From positions 1-11,518 of the forward strand of contig CAMAWS010000051.1 of the NCBI GenBank assembly GCA_945861845.1: DNA of 11,518 nt, read 5' to 3'. Of this stretch, positions 2,495-7,448 are shown piece after piece. Within the stretch, counting starts at the first letter, position 1. Each line of letters begins with the position of its first letter. The notes under the pieces were generated by a model. The model made no database searches, had not been told where the DNA came from, and saw only the letters and a program-made list of their open reading frames with translations. This DNA is from Candidatus Sulfopaludibacter sp. SbA3. Lineage in GTDB: Bacteria > Acidobacteriota > Terriglobia > 20CM-2-55-15. Position numbers and translations under genes: made by a program.

Positions 2495-3946
2495 TTATGG
2501 AGCGGGAACATCTTCGCTATGTATGGAAAACCTCGCGGTCCACTCGGCCGTACTGCGAATTCCGACGCCACCTGCGCCTGACGGCACAAAGAATGTTGCT
2601 GCAAGGCTGTGTTCGTCCGCCCAGCGAATACCGGCATCCGGCCCCATGACATAAAGGGCCGTCGACAGGATATCGGCAACAATCGCACGTTGGTGCCATA
2701 CCGAAACAGCTACATCAGAAACAACAGGATGGCCTGTGCGGGGATCCAGAATATGGCCGATGCGCTGACCGTCACGGTAGAGATCATGTTCGGAGCCTCC
2801 ACTGGTGGATATCGATCCAGACGTCAACGCTACAGTCAGCACCGGCTTGCTGCGCTCGATGGGATGCGCCAGGTCTACGAGCCAGGCTCGGTGTGATGGC
2901 GGAATGCCATCCACGATAATCTGTCCCCCCAGGTCTATGAGGAACGGCGTTGACGCGCGTTCGCGCGCATATTCCAGCACGCGATCGAGACCTTCGCCCT
3001 TTCCAAACGCCCCTACATCGATCGTAATGTCGCTCTCTTTGATCAATTGAAGAGCCTCAGAATTGAGGCGTAGGTGCTCCATCCCGGATCGACGCCGCGC
3101 CGACTGCAATTCCTGGCGTTGCGGCAGATGGCCGCTTCCATGAATATCCCACGCCTGGGTAAGCCTGCCGATGGCAGGATCAAAAGCGCCGTAGGTTTCC
3201 TTGTTCCAGAAAAAGAGGTCCTCGAAAAGGCGGACCAGTTGTCTATTCAGGGGAAACGGCACTCCGACTTGATGCTCATTCAACCTGCTGAATGTACTGT
3301 CGCTTCTCCAGGTGCTCAGTTCCTGTTCCGTGTTTTCAAGGATGCGGACAAAACTCTCCAACTGCTCAATTCCAGCGCGGCGGTCCACGTTGTAGGTCGT
3401 CAGGCTCGCCGCCGTGCCCATCAGGTGTACCTGGCGGGTGATTTCCGCAGTACCGCCTTGGCCGAAACTGATGCCCAGCAGCATGAAAAGAACGAGGGCA
3501 ATTGCACCTGCCGCCTTAACGGTCACTTCCAGGCGGATGCTGATCAACTGGTGGATGATGTACGTCAATAGAAACAGGCCGGAAGCCACGAGATGCGATA
3601 CGAGCGCAATCTTGTTGATGGTGGAATTGGTCACGACTTGCAACGCGTAACCCGAAACCACCATTGCCGGGAACGCGGCCAGCGAGACCAGGCCTGAACG
3701 GCGGTTATGAGAAGACGACGCGGCAAGTTTCTTTCGAACGTGGGTATTGATCATGAGTCCAAGGACAAAAACGAGGAAAGGCGCCGCAACAATATGAATG
3801 CCCAGCATTGCCGGTTGGAGGGGATGATTCACGACACTGAACGGGTCATCGGTCTCCATAAAATACTTCATCCAGAGATAGATGAACCCGCTCACGCTGA
3901 CAACGATCGTGGAGAGGTGTGAAAGCCACTTTTCGGCGGGGTTCAT
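2495..3946 (-). CDS. apbE: Membrane cytochrome-b-like domain fused to ApbE FAD:protein FMN transferase
   Basis: A 483-residue fusion. Residues 1-165 hold five predicted transmembrane helices (about 9-28, 44-66, 84-106, 112-136, 144-163). Positive loops at 69-83 and 132-144 place the N-terminus in the cytoplasm and the C-terminal domain in the periplasm. H10, H51, H118 and H132 lie in or beside helices and could bind heme b; the domain resembles DUF4405-type membrane cytochromes, but that is tentative. Residues about 170-475 are ApbE: LMGTAASLT (175-183), DPAIGRLTQAWDI (256-268), IDVGAFGKGEGLD (309-321), IDLGG (337-341), STSGGSEHDLY (380-390), HILDPRTG (398-405) and ADILSTALYVMG (424-435). D425 and T429 occupy the usual metal-site positions. 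ApbE transfers FMN from FAD to a Thr of exported FMN-binding proteins. The ATG overlaps the stop of the FMN-binding gene (ATGA), and AAAGGAG precedes it at 3950-3956. The ApbE assignment is firm; the electron-transfer role of the membrane half is inferred. Confidence 0.9.
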   Translation of the reverse strand: MNPAEKWLSHLSTIVVSVSGFIYLWMKYFMETDDPFSVVNHPLQPAMLGIHIVAAPFLVFVLGLMINTHVRKKLAASSSHNRRSGLVSLAAFPAMVVSGYALQVVTNSTINKIALVSHLVASGLFLLTYIIHQLISIRLEVTVKAAGAIALVLFMLLGISFGQGGTAEITRQVHLMGTAASLTTYNVDRRAGIEQLESFVRILENTEQELSTWRSDSTFSRLNEHQVGVPFPLNRQLVRLFEDLFFWNKETYGAFDPAIGRLTQAWDIHGSGHLPQRQELQSARRRSGMEHLRLNSEALQLIKESDITIDVGAFGKGEGLDRVLEYARERASTPFLIDLGGQIIVDGIPPSHRAWLVDLAHPIERSKPVLTVALTSGSISTSGGSEHDLYRDGQRIGHILDPRTGHPVVSDVAVSVWHQRAIVADILSTALYVMGPDAGIRWADEHSLAATFFVPSGAGGVGIRSTAEWTARFSIHSEDVPAP

Positions 3947-4494
3947 GGTCTCCTTTCCCCGGTAGTGACGCCCGTCACAACTCGGTCGATCGCAAGAATC
4001 CTCCGCACTGCGCGGGTCGTGGCGGCGCCGGTCAATGTAGCTCCGGCGATCGGCCGGATCGCCCGATCTATGTTCAATGCGTCATTTAGTGGTTTGCCGG
4101 CGAACTGCGCATACCAGGCCGGGGGAGGCTCGTATTCAGGAGGCTCGAGAAACGCGGTCACCTCGATCCGCTTTACGGCGCCTTTCTCGTCCAGGCAGAT
4201 CAGCAGGCTCTCCCGTTTGGTGCGGACCACATGGGTGTCGATGTACGCACGGCCCACTGCTTTTCCATCAGCCACGGCAAGATAACGAGCCACCAAAGCA
4301 GTCTCCACATCCGTACCGGCCAGCGCCCGGGCTGCCGCAATCTGTTCGTTCGTCAGGAACAGCCTTTCCGGGCGGATCGCCGCGCCCGGATAAACCTTTG
4401 CCAACGCTTCTTCGCGGCTCGCCTGTGAAAAACCGGAGACGGAAAGGACAAGCATCAGGCCGAAGACAAGTGCATACCACTTACGCCAGGTCAT
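3943..4494 (-). CDS. Exported FMN-binding-domain protein, predicted covalently flavinylated
   Basis: A 183-residue small exported protein. Residues 1-25 are a signal peptide (MTWRKW, hydrophobic core, SQA before S26); there is no lipobox Cys. The remainder resembles the FMN_bind domain of NqrC and RnfG: VGRAYIDTHVVRTK, LLICLDEKGAVKRIEV, FLEPPEY and the C-terminal AGATLTGAATTRAV. In NqrC/RnfG-type proteins the motif S/T-G-A-T-x-T carries FMN as a phosphoester on its last Thr; here that is T155, and the first motif residue is Ala150 instead of Ser/Thr. The likely modifying enzyme is encoded immediately downstream with a 4-nt overlap. The frame opens at 4554, but that start would lie 54 nt inside the porin gene; the ATG at 4494, 4 nt after the porin stop, leads straight into the signal peptide and is preferred. 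No Shine-Dalgarno is seen there, so translational coupling to the porin gene is likely. Confidence 0.85.
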   Translation of the reverse strand: MTWRKWYALVFGLMLVLSVSGFSQASREEALAKVYPGAAIRPERLFLTNEQIAAARALAGTDVETALVARYLAVADGKAVGRAYIDTHVVRTKRESLLICLDEKGAVKRIEVTAFLEPPEYEPPPAWYAQFAGKPLNDALNIDRAIRPIAGATLTGAATTRAVRRILAIDRVVTGVTTGERRP

Positions 4495-4498
4495 CACG

Positions 4499-5803
4499 TT
4501 AAAACGAGTAACCAAGCGAAATGTTGAATTGACCGAGTCCCGTCTTTGCAGCATTCCTGATCCATTGATAATCGGCCTTCACAGCCACGTTCTGGATGGG
4601 CAGAAACTGAAGTCCGGCGGTGTTGTACTTCCGATCCATGGCAGCGTTAGCGACAAAGCCTGCGGCAGGACGCTTCTGAGTGTTGAATTTCTCGAACCGA
4701 TAAAACGGAGTGAGAGCGGCTTCATATCGGGACTGCGAAAGAATGTTGTATCCAATCTGCAGATAACCGCCATCCATCCGTTCTGCAATCGCGTTTGCGC
4801 CCGTGAGGTTGCGCACCGCATTGAGTTCCGCAACATCGTCCAGACCGGTACGCGCAAGAAGGCCACGAAAGTCCACGCCTCTCATCTGAATTTGTGCATG
4901 AACTTCGCCAACGGTGGTTTTCACATCGAGCGGTCTTCCGCCGAGCGTGAACTGATCCTGATCGGAGCCTCCGAAATAGAACGATCCACCGACGAGGGCA
5001 CCCGGAACTGGCGTGGCGTCGAGCCGGCCGACGAATGCCGGATCGCTCATCCGCGCCCTGGATCCCCTTTGCCTTCCGCCACGCAGGCCATCGTTGCTGA
5101 ATCCGGCGGCGTTCATGCCATTGATGACATAGGCCCGGTAGCTGAATTTCCCGGCGTTGCCAACAACCCCAAAACCGTTCTCCCGCCAGGTTGAAGGAAT
5201 GATTCGGCTTTCGGTCTCGCTTCGGCGCGCGCCCAGGAACGCATTCGGCTCATGAAACTCGTTAGTCAGGCCCATCGGGACCAGCAGCAGGCCACCGCGA
5301 ATTGTCAGTGCGGGATGTGCAATGTAGTCGACGTACGCGAACTCTGCCCAGATCTCGTTGGCGTGCTCCAGTTCGACTTCGGAATTGAACAGGAATTTGT
5401 CGTTGAAGCGATAGCCGAAGTACAGGACCGCGCGGAGAAAATCCAACTGCGTCCCCTGGTTCCTTGTTCGTCCAGCCTGGTCTGCTGAGGCGAAATTCTC
5501 GTACAGCATTTCGCCGTAGCCAGCAATCGAAACGCCCCTCTGCTTTCGATAGACTGAGGCTGCGGAGAATCCAAGACCGCGGGCCCGGGCCTGGTCCGAG
5601 GTAACTTCAACTTCGGGCTCCCCGCTTCTTTGCTTCTCGACCTCTTCCGCCAGAACATCAACCTTCCGCCGCAATTCTTCCAATTCAGAAGCCTCGGTCT
5701 GCGGAGGCGCAGCCTGCCCCTGGAATGCCCAGGCATCGCCCGCGGCAAACAGTAAAAATGCAATAGACGACCTTGCGACCCACCTGAATAATAATTCCCT
5801 CAT
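4499..5803 (-). CDS. Outer-membrane porin, OprO/OprP-like, first gene of a Fur-box operon
   Basis: A 434-residue outer-membrane barrel protein. Signal peptide residues 1-26 end in AWA before F27. Residues about 38-60 (ELEELRRKVDVLAEEVEKQR) form a short coiled coil, as in several trimeric porins. From about residue 80 there are porin-like amphipathic strands. Recognisable segments are VSIAGYGEMLYENF, LDFLRAVLYFGYRFNDKF, LLLVPMGLTNEFHEPNAFLG, IIPSTWRENGFGV and YRAYVINGMN, which match the phosphate-selective porin O/P style. The last residue is Phe (ISLGYSF). Substrate preference cannot be read from the sequence; because the operon carries a Fur-type box, passage of an iron complex or other metal is more plausible than phosphate, but this is inference. 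AAGGA lies 5 nt before the ATG. The stop codon is 4 nt upstream of the FMN-binding gene, so the three genes form one operon. Confidence 0.8.
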   Translation of the reverse strand: MRELLFRWVARSSIAFLLFAAGDAWAFQGQAAPPQTEASELEELRRKVDVLAEEVEKQRSGEPEVEVTSDQARARGLGFSAASVYRKQRGVSIAGYGEMLYENFASADQAGRTRNQGTQLDFLRAVLYFGYRFNDKFLFNSEVELEHANEIWAEFAYVDYIAHPALTIRGGLLLVPMGLTNEFHEPNAFLGARRSETESRIIPSTWRENGFGVVGNAGKFSYRAYVINGMNAAGFSNDGLRGGRQRGSRARMSDPAFVGRLDATPVPGALVGGSFYFGGSDQDQFTLGGRPLDVKTTVGEVHAQIQMRGVDFRGLLARTGLDDVAELNAVRNLTGANAIAERMDGGYLQIGYNILSQSRYEAALTPFYRFEKFNTQKRPAAGFVANAAMDRKYNTAGLQFLPIQNVAVKADYQWIRNAAKTGLGQFNISLGYSF

Positions 5804-5926
5804 GATTGTCCTTCGACTTGGGAACGCGCCGGGGAGACGCGGTTACCAGTCCACTTCATCTATTCCCGCCATTTACCTGCCGCTTCAAATCTGTCCGAGG
5901 TCTTTCGTCTGAATCACAAACGACAG

Positions 5927-5941
5927 TGAAAATCATTTTCA
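5927..5941. promoter_or_regulatory. Fur-type box, perfect 7-1-7 inverted repeat
   Basis: TGAAAAT-C-ATTTTCA is an exact 15-bp palindrome with one central base and closely matches the known Fur 7-1-7 consensus TGATAAT-N-ATTATCA (one substitution per arm). A looser outer inverted repeat (AATCAC at 5912-5917, GTGATT at 5947-5952) is nearly concentric with it. The box sits at about +2 to +16 of the predicted porin-operon start, a position suited to repression by Fe-Fur. It is also 126 bp upstream of the divergent cyclase gene. Other Fur-family regulators (Zur, PerR, Mur) bind related palindromes, so the metal is not proven. Confidence 0.7.
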
Positions 5942-5949
5942 TTTGAGTG

Positions 5950-5979
5950 ATTGTGCCTTCCAGGGGAATCTGCAGTCAA
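5950..5979 (-). promoter_or_regulatory. Sigma-70-type promoter of the porin-flavin operon
   Basis: Read on the minus strand, TTGACT (5979-5974) is followed after 18 nt by CACAAT (5955-5950), matching the -35 and -10 consensus at 5/6 and 4/6. The start would fall near 5943, directly at the edge of the Fur-type box, with a leader of about 140 nt before the porin ATG. No clear hairpin was found in that leader. Confidence 0.5.
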
Positions 5980-6067: not shown

Positions 6068-7114
6068 ATGGCCAAGAAGATCCTAGTTGTGGACGACGAG
6101 ATCGCAGTTCGGTCCGTGATCAGGACCATGCTGGAAGGCGAGGGCTACGAGGTATTCGAAAACCGGACCGCAGAAGAAGCATTGCGGACCGCCACTGTGA
6201 ACGAAATCGACGCGTTTCTCCTGGATATCGACCTCGATGGCATGAGCGGACTTGAACTTTGCCGTGCACTGCGTCAGATGGAGCGGTACCGCCTGACTCC
6301 GATCGTTTTCGTCACCGGTCATCATGAAGGAAGCGCGCTGGAGGACGGGTTCAAAGCCGGGTGCAACGATTTCCTGTTGAAACCAATTCAAACCACGATC
6401 CTGCGGGTTCGACTGAGAGGCCACCTCGAGCGCATGGAATACATGTCAGAACTCGAAAGGGTGCGGCGGAATCTTAGCCGGTATGTTTCCACGCGTACGA
6501 AGGCGGTCGTTGAAAACTATTCCCGTACCGGGGAGCTACCGGCCCCCCAGGAGAACGACGTCTGTATCTGCTTCACCGATATCCGCGGTTTCACTGCGCT
6601 TTCCGAGGAAATGGAATCCCATGTACTGTTTTCGATCCTGAGCAAGTTTCTCGCCGAACAGGTGAAACTTGTGTATCAGTTCGGAGGCTACATCGACAAG
6701 TTTGGAGGTGACGGAGTGATGGCAATCTTCGACGGTCCCGACATGGCTGTTCGGAGTTGCCTTTGCGCACTGCGCGTCATTGAATCAGCAAGGATACTGA
6801 GCGAAGGTGAGGACGAGCGAGTTCGCCAGATCGGCATTGGAATACATATGGGCCGTGTGATTATTGGAAACATCGGATCGTCCGAGCATTTCGACTATTC
6901 CGTGATCGGAAGCTCAGTTAACCTGGCCGCACGTCTTTGCGGCGTTGCGGCTCCGATGACCGTGGTAGTTTCCGAGGTCGTGCGGGACGGCGCCCAACAC
7001 GATCCGGAACTGCAATTCCACGATCCCCAGCAGGTTCCTATTCGCGGATTCAGGCACTCGGTATCGGTCTACAAGCTCTCGCGTAGCCAGCCGGACATGG
7101 GGCCCGGCGAGTAA
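6068..7114 (+). CDS. Response regulator with class III adenylate/guanylate cyclase output
   Basis: A 348-residue cytoplasmic protein. Residues 1-120 are a receiver domain with the acidic pair D9/D10, phospho-acceptor D53 (LLDIDLDGMSG), T83 and K105 (LLKPI). A helical linker, about 121-160, connects to a class III cyclase domain (160-340). The catalytic set looks complete: metal-binding D171 (FTDIRGFT) and D215 (KFGGDGVMAIF), substrate-contacting K211, the DYSVIG segment from D276, and transition-state residues N285 and R289 (VNLAARL). The Lys favours ATP, so cAMP is the expected product, but specificity is a prediction. No partner histidine kinase is in the window. The ATG at 6068 has no Shine-Dalgarno; an in-frame GTG at 6050, 7 nt after TATACT, is the alternative start. 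The gene is divergent from the Fur-box operon and converges with the next gene, 14 bp away. Confidence 0.92.
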   Translation: MAKKILVVDDEIAVRSVIRTMLEGEGYEVFENRTAEEALRTATVNEIDAFLLDIDLDGMSGLELCRALRQMERYRLTPIVFVTGHHEGSALEDGFKAGCNDFLLKPIQTTILRVRLRGHLERMEYMSELERVRRNLSRYVSTRTKAVVENYSRTGELPAPQENDVCICFTDIRGFTALSEEMESHVLFSILSKFLAEQVKLVYQFGGYIDKFGGDGVMAIFDGPDMAVRSCLCALRVIESARILSEGEDERVRQIGIGIHMGRVIIGNIGSSEHFDYSVIGSSVNLAARLCGVAAPMTVVVSEVVRDGAQHDPELQFHDPQQVPIRGFRHSVSVYKLSRSQPDMGPGE

Positions 7115-7128
7115 CAGAAATGCGAATC

Positions 7129-7434
7129 TCAGGCCGTTGATCTCCACCACATTTTAAAGACCAATCCCTGGAATGCCGACGCCGCAATCAGAAGCGGGTC
7201 ATCAAGCCCGTAAACGGTGATAAAGAAAGGAGTGACACGGCGTATCAGGAGGATCAGCGCCATCGCAACCAAAACGTTGGCGCCAAGAAAGACGACGCTC
7301 GTTCCAATGCATTCCAGCGCCTCGACTGCGGCCCGGCGCAGTGAGCCTGTGGCCCCAGCGGCGAAACGGCGGGCGATCAGGTAAGCTGCAATGGAAGTCG
7401 CCAACACCAGGAACGCGCCAAACGCCTTATCCAT
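7129..7434 (-). CDS. Small membrane protein of unknown function
   Basis: A 101-residue protein with hydrophobic segments at about 4-20, 42-64 and 66-95, probably three membrane helices, ending KMWWRSTA. The loop around 21-36 (ARRF...SLRRA) is positive and likely cytoplasmic. I do not recognise a family. The frame opens at a GTG (7440), but the perfect GGAGG at 7441-7445 touches that codon and is 6 nt from the ATG at 7434, so the ATG is the start. The Shine-Dalgarno lies in the 14-nt gap after the YdcF-like gene, so the two are probably co-transcribed. A role in envelope biology would fit its neighbour, but nothing in the sequence shows it. Confidence 0.65.
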   Translation of the reverse strand: MDKAFGAFLVLATSIAAYLIARRFAAGATGSLRRAAVEALECIGTSVVFLGANVLVAMALILLIRRVTPFFITVYGLDDPLLIAASAFQGLVFKMWWRSTA

Positions 7435-7448
7435 GACCACCCTCCGAT

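Follow-up and report, generated by a model that had tools for sequence, protein, structure and literature searches.

A conserved Acidobacteriota operon joining a porin, an FMN_bind protein, a predicted di-heme cytochrome b and ApbE behind a Fur-type box

Relation to described flavinylation systems

In the text of two surveys of flavinylation (PMC8238504; PMC10979944), the known systems consist of a membrane protein for electron transfer and a carrier modified by ApbE, and the membrane partners named there are of the NapH, MsrQ, PepSY, DsbD, NQR/RNF and DUF4405 types. A PepSY-like protein is described as binding heme (PMC10979944), and in Caulobacter the genes encoding the DUF2271, DUF4198 and ApbE proteins (CC_3059-3063) are tabled as iron-responsive and Fur-regulated (PMC3751524). 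Here we describe an operon of Candidatus Sulfopaludibacter sp. SbA3 (Acidobacteriota; order Bryobacterales in the NCBI taxonomy) on contig C51 (CAMAWS010000051.1), the entire 11,518 nucleotides (nt) of which form the window analysed; the parent genome is 3.31 Mb in size and 81% complete. On the minus strand lie genes for an outer-membrane porin (4499..5803), an exported FMN_bind protein (3943..4494) and a predicted four-helix membrane domain (TM; 3452..3946), which is here fused to ApbE, the flavin adenine dinucleotide (FAD):protein flavin mononucleotide (FMN) transferase (2495..3451). The operon probably encodes a Fur-repressed, periplasmic, flavin-based assimilatory ferric reductase, in which electrons would run from quinol through two hemes b to a covalent FMN and on to Fe(III). 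This reading draws on analogy with the known flavinylation systems and on the operator. The anatomy and regulation of the operon are well supported by its sequence, and we infer the hemes, the electron donor and direction, the topology, the cargo of the porin and the substrate, which would be ferric iron.

As far as the cited texts describe them, the PepSY-like systems with DUF2271, DUF4198 and ApbE (PMC8238504; PMC3751524) likewise combine a membrane heme protein, an exported flavinylated protein and ApbE, and on the iron side they have a link to iron, Fur control and, in some of their clusters, a TonB receptor. However, ApbE is the only common component. A cytochrome-b-type four-helix domain, FMN_bind and a porin stand here in place of PepSY, DUF2271 and the TonB receptor, and a Pfam scan found neither PepSY_TM nor DUF2271 domains in the window operon. 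By analogy, the unit is best read as running parallel to the PepSY/DUF2271 systems while being built from other parts. The DUF4405 cytochromes, according to the published descriptions (PMC10979944; PMC11334425, mSystems 2024), are also membrane heme-b proteins with conserved His residues encoded near apbE, but they have six transmembrane helices, occur in Proteobacteria and Firmicutes and often accompany a flavinylated flavodoxin, whereas the window unit has four helices and a porin. We rejected membership of TM in DUF4405 (PF14358) because the Pfam matches were only weak (5 of 20 TM members, best E 0.01, none for the window protein) and the model has four helices, not six. Models of the MsrQ, NapH and DsbD types were not among the matches listed for the window proteins.

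The word “porin” is absent from the main text of both flavinylation surveys (PMC8238504, PMC10979944), and nothing recognisable as a porin/FMN_bind/TM/ApbE unit appeared among the papers listed in the literature searches. We tentatively propose, at a confidence a little short of even, that the unit represents one more class of transmembrane electron-transfer systems based on flavinylation, composed of a four-helix di-heme cytochrome b, FMN_bind, ApbE and a porin inherited along with them, in some cases also with a Fur-family gene of its own, and that it constitutes a main TonB-independent reductive route of iron acquisition in Acidobacteriota and some relatives. If the unit is a true iron reductase, four gene families would gain an annotation, and a soil phylum that is abundant but hard to grow would gain a testable iron-uptake route.

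Conservation and components of the unit

The initial annotation had described three tightly spaced genes and taken them for a candidate flavin-based redox operon that responds to iron and spans the envelope, and the window coordinates bear this layout out. The ATG of the FMN_bind gene lies 4 nt past the porin stop, and the FMN_bind gene overlaps the membrane-ApbE frame (2495-3946, minus strand) by 4 nt (ATGA). Profile searches covered 396 Acidobacteriota genomes from 211 genera. The TM profile matched 101 of these genomes (56 of the 211 genera) and the porin profile 142, a total that includes paralogues and weak partial matches. Of the 100 other TM genomes, 40 were used (for the most part better-scoring ones); these, together with 54 named loci, the window and two family loci, gave 97 loci, which were reduced to 81 distinct ones by dropping copies identical in the first 200 nt of TM. 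The synteny of porin, FMN_bind and membrane-ApbE genes, put forward for checking in the initial annotation, is conserved across the phylum, with FMN_bind adjoining TM in 80 of the 81 loci and the porin lying near TM in 73. The prevailing gene orders were porin-FMN-TM-apbE (42 loci), apbE-porin-FMN-TM (18) and porin-FMN-TM (12). Rarer ones were FMN-TM-apbE (5), FMN-TM (2), porin-apbE-FMN-TM (1) and TM only (1), the contig of this last locus starting 165 nt before TM. Most of the holders that have a name carry the label of Acidobacteriota or of one of its classes. Five are labelled Gemmatimonadota, and single bins Planctomycetota, Verrucomicrobia and others; the labels of bins may be wrong.

A single frame encodes both TM and ApbE in only three of the 81 loci (the window, L158 and L135), so the fusion seen here is uncommon and the two genes are usually separate. 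A length-restricted protein search gave six TM-ApbE fusion proteins among those listed, the window's included. The earlier description of a five-helix, His-containing domain fused to ApbE thus stands as regards the His-bearing domain and the fusion in this window, but the structural model has four helices and there are usually two genes.

On sequence grounds the identity of the window ApbE domain is certain (PF02424, 205.9 bits against a cut-off of 25.6). The window FMN_bind protein alone scored 16.5 bits against PF04205, under the Pfam cut-off of 22, and the same model matched 20 of 20 FMN_bind family members at E values up to 0.1 (best 5.1e-7). Flavinylation takes place at a GA(T/S)x(T/S) motif. 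The pattern [AST]GA[ST][LIVM][ST] was found in 75 of 80 FMN_bind proteins, and the remaining five have one changed residue each (VGATLT in three, LGATLT and AGGTLT). The window protein has the motif AGATLT and would carry covalent FMN.

The porin is predicted to have 16 beta strands, preceded by a coiled-coil-like N-terminal helix, and its best fold matches are pores of the OprP/OprO/PorB/OmpF type, the fold being that of a diffusion pore. No Pfam family matched below E 0.02 for the four porin members tested, and in NCBIfam the porin matched OmpX alone, at 16.8 of 176 bits, far under the cut-off. It differs from the 16-strand porins of OprP/OprO/OmpF type in being a regular member of a redox operon. 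Its co-occurrence with FMN_bind in 73 of the 81 loci would suit a conduit like MtrAB, with the barrel plugged by the FMN protein and electrons passing through the outer membrane. In an MtrAB-type conduit, however, MtrB is a 26-strand barrel wrapping a multiheme protein, whereas the barrel here has 16 strands only, resembles diffusion pores, and is encoded with proteins that all lack CXXCH, as does the porin itself; the absence of c-type heme motifs from the operon had been stated from the start. An MtrAB-like conduit was therefore rejected and is hardly credible. The proximity of the porin to TM in 73 of the 81 loci, together with the pore fold, would also agree with passage of small flavins or other shuttles through the porin and reduction of iron outside the cell. 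We consider this quite improbable, as no flavin exporter was recognised in the unit and porins of such size are rather unselective.

The Fur-type box and its sister sites

The initial annotation had also pointed out a perfect 7-1-7 Fur-type palindrome upstream of the operon, and we confirmed it, without strand, at 5927..5941 (TGAAAATCATTTTCA). It is the window's only match to TGAWAATNATTWTCA at up to two mismatches (0.04 expected; such a match arose in 8 of 200 shuffles) and the only match with up to one mismatch in the parent genome. A minus-strand promoter, composed of a -35-like TTGACT (5974..5979) and a -10-like CACAAT (5950..5955) with an 18-nt spacer, ends 8 nt before the palindrome, which is the geometry of an operator. 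A same-genus genome (G001) keeps the promoter, with TTGACA at -35, and a one-mismatch box, TTGAAATTGATTTTCAA. Two genomes from another genus of the family have the boxes GAAATTGACAATGATTTTCAATTTC (G002) and GGAATTGACAATGATTTTCAATTTC (G005), 14 nt behind TTGACC-18-TATAGT. A chance palindrome was rejected on account of this uniqueness in the genome and of the like boxes and promoters in the three relatives. We likewise rejected a box serving the divergent response-regulator/cyclase gene, since G002 and G005 keep the box before the porin while the upstream frame there differs.

For the survey of upstream regions, a strict Fur-like site was defined by at least 6 of 7 palindromic pairs and at least 5 of 6 positions of the TGA/TCA ends within 500 nt upstream. 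Twelve of the 81 operons were not testable, their first gene being neither porin nor apbE or their upstream sequence missing. Strict sites preceded 32 of the 69 testable operons, while among 1800 other stretches of 500 nt from the same loci 12 had one (Fisher's exact test: 5e-40, related loci being treated as independent); for relaxed sites the figures were 40 of 69 and 79 of 1800. The boxes before fur in L157 and L211 were not counted among the 32. The site types differ between operons (TGAAAATNATTTTCA, TGAGAATNATTCTCA, TGAGACTNAGTCTCA and TGAGATTNAATCTCA). In 25 of the 32 cases the site has beside it a promoter with a score of 9 or more out of 12; shuffles gave such a promoter in 181 of 1600 cases, and random stretches in 16 of 1600.

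Thirteen genomes were scanned for further copies of the site, G002 and G005 at up to two mismatches and five plus six others at up to one. G067 and G086 have the operon's site only, and G240 has none at up to one mismatch. Nineteen sites were found outside the operon, and 11 of them adjoin iron genes: feoB in G002, G005, G282 and G225 (with feoA in G225), a PepSY_TM gene in G002, fur-FTR1 in G260, TonB receptors in G429 (three) and G236 (one), and ferritin in G344. These assignments are by adjacency, and feoB in G005 was assigned by its likeness to the G002 case. In L239 the TonB receptor frame starts only after about 600 nt and an intervening frame, and the ferritin site has divergent frames on its two sides. 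For ferritin, feoB of G282 and a binding protein, the box falls inside the called frame, the true start of which is probably later. Of the other eight sites, six are unassigned or of another kind, and the remaining two lie at genes for an ABC binding protein and an OprB porin. In the 99%-complete genome G002, the only three sites are those of the flavin operon, PepSY_TM and feoB, and G001, of the window's genus, has a two-mismatch box before feoB.

A Fur-family gene is present in 12 of the 81 loci, with PF01475 in all ten scanned, against about 0.5 expected by chance, a crude figure taken from two fur genes per ~4-Mb genome and ~1 Mb of locus sequence, with related loci not independent. In 11 of the 12 it lies upstream in the same orientation (L135 has it downstream on the opposite strand), within 1 kb of the unit in nine and at about 2.6 kb in two more. 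In four of the 12 (L157, L206, L207 and L211) a Fur-like box immediately precedes the fur frame, as though the operon there began with fur. The window genome has two Fur-family genes, and G000, G001 and G002 have two each. Given the enrichment, the adjacent promoter, the sister sites at iron genes and the linked fur genes, the palindrome is very likely a Fur operator, with Fur binding itself deduced from sequence patterns. Together with the synteny, these upstream sites, sister sites and adjoining fur genes support the proposal of an iron-responsive trans-envelope flavin redox operon.

The predicted cytochrome b and the proposed electron path

The predicted structure of TM has four helices (pLDDT, the predicted local distance difference test score, 94.6), and its five His residues (41, 51, 69, 118 and 132) are invariant in 81 of 81 and in 79 of 79 sequences. 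The model is that of a di-heme cytochrome-b-like fold, a four-helix bundle with conserved in-membrane His pairs, which may bind and pair two hemes. The fourth helix (108-161) appears long enough to serve both as a bundle helix and as an anchor for ApbE. Cytochrome b561, HyaC and CybB (PF01292) as well as cytochrome b6 have in common with TM, as modelled, the four-helix heme-b fold, conserved His residues and H-x13-H in helix 4, but TM is coupled to FMN_bind and ApbE and the window protein is not matched by PF01292. That family matched 4 of 20 TM members (best 2.8e-6) and is carried by 2 of the 120 TM relatives listed, among which the name, where a source gives one, is hypothetical protein. Among the candidates scored, 1804 relatives reached E values up to 1e-8, and a sequence search of the Protein Data Bank with the TM and porin profiles gave no convincing relative. 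The likeness to CybB raises the idea of a superoxide or oxidative-stress system in which the membrane part acts as a superoxide oxidase. This is very unlikely, as the identified sister-box genes are iron genes with no peroxide gene recognised among them, and CybB is not known to need a flavoprotein or porin.

For a ferric reductase, the following course may be envisaged. Under iron shortage, Fur would leave the operator beside the transcription start and the operon would be made. ApbE would attach FMN covalently to the exported FMN_bind protein, and the membrane cytochrome would take electrons, probably from quinol, and pass them over a cytoplasmic-side heme (His69/His132) and then a periplasmic-side heme (His51/His118) to the FMN. 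The porin would admit Fe(III) or ferric chelates, and the reduced flavin would make Fe(II), which might enter by FeoB, whose gene bears a like box in related genomes.

Fur control could instead be a matter of economy. The unit would then be an iron-sparing replacement, supplying a flavin-based periplasmic carrier for a non-iron substrate when c-type hemes are scarce. Paralogues of the porin (L220-L227) lie in porin-cupredoxin-di-haem oxidoreductase operons in all eight loci fetched, with a DtxR/Fe_dep_repress gene near three of the eight, as if one porin family served both heme/copper and flavin versions. This setting points to metal-linked periplasmic redox and equally allows the iron-sparing replacement. 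An interchange of flavins and cytochromes is discussed in part of one survey (PMC8238504). However, two hemes appear to be bound by the modelled membrane partner, and iron-uptake genes carry many of the sister boxes. The neighbour clusters of the 81 loci, as far as annotated, revealed neither a substrate enzyme that recurs as a constant partner nor a consistent link to another respiratory substrate. The linkage to Fur-family genes slightly raises our confidence in a ferric reductase and lowers that in an iron-sparing replacement, which we regard as unlikely.

Several observations weigh against a uniform Fur-controlled ferric reductase. Strict Fur-like sites, though strongly enriched upstream, are absent from 37 of the 69 testable operons, so the palindrome is not universal. 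They are lacking in all five loci of genus g109 and in three of the five loci labelled Gemmatimonadota. Four g109 loci (L145, L147, L152 and L153) have at the promoter a conserved element of the GGTCCTTGACAAATAGGACCAAT type instead, weaker in L153; GGTCCTTGACAAATAGGACCAAT occurs once in each of three genomes (up to three mismatches), in G237 away from the operon. In L215-L218, the place behind porin and FMN_bind is taken by another membrane protein (L215:7837-8379; L216:239-847; about L217:8478-8966; L218:5600-6355), which has YYRGSE and THxH motifs in L215-L217 and, for the L215 member, no Pfam match. In L132-L134 an SBP_bac_3 lipoprotein (L133:5085-6236) takes the porin's place upstream of FMN-TM-apbE. 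Porins of the same class stand without FMN_bind or TM in L212-L214, which belong to the genomes of L132-L134, and in L228. With such substitutions, lone porins and box-less operons, the parts of the operon are exchangeable and its control is non-uniform.

An OprB-type porin gene with a Fur-like box (one mismatch) in L251 (343-1497) suggests that there are more iron-responsive porins in Acidobacteriota. Other neighbours were identified by clustering of neighbour frames, clusters of up to nine loci being annotated only in part. An exported TPR/CarboxypepD_reg protein is encoded directly downstream of TM in seven of the 81 loci (L137, L141, L149, L151, L207, L210 and L211), and the partly annotated clusters include an NHL-repeat protein (L194) and an OMP_b-brl protein (L147). 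In the window, a gene for a DUF5916 protein (202-2460) adjoins the operon, as it does in the same-genus genome. On the other side, a response regulator fused to an adenylate/guanylate cyclase (6071-7114) is encoded divergently, the intergenic stretch with the Fur-type box being common to both. It is followed by the gene for a small protein of 103 amino acids (7129-7440), which has no Pfam match and is kept in the same-genus genome.
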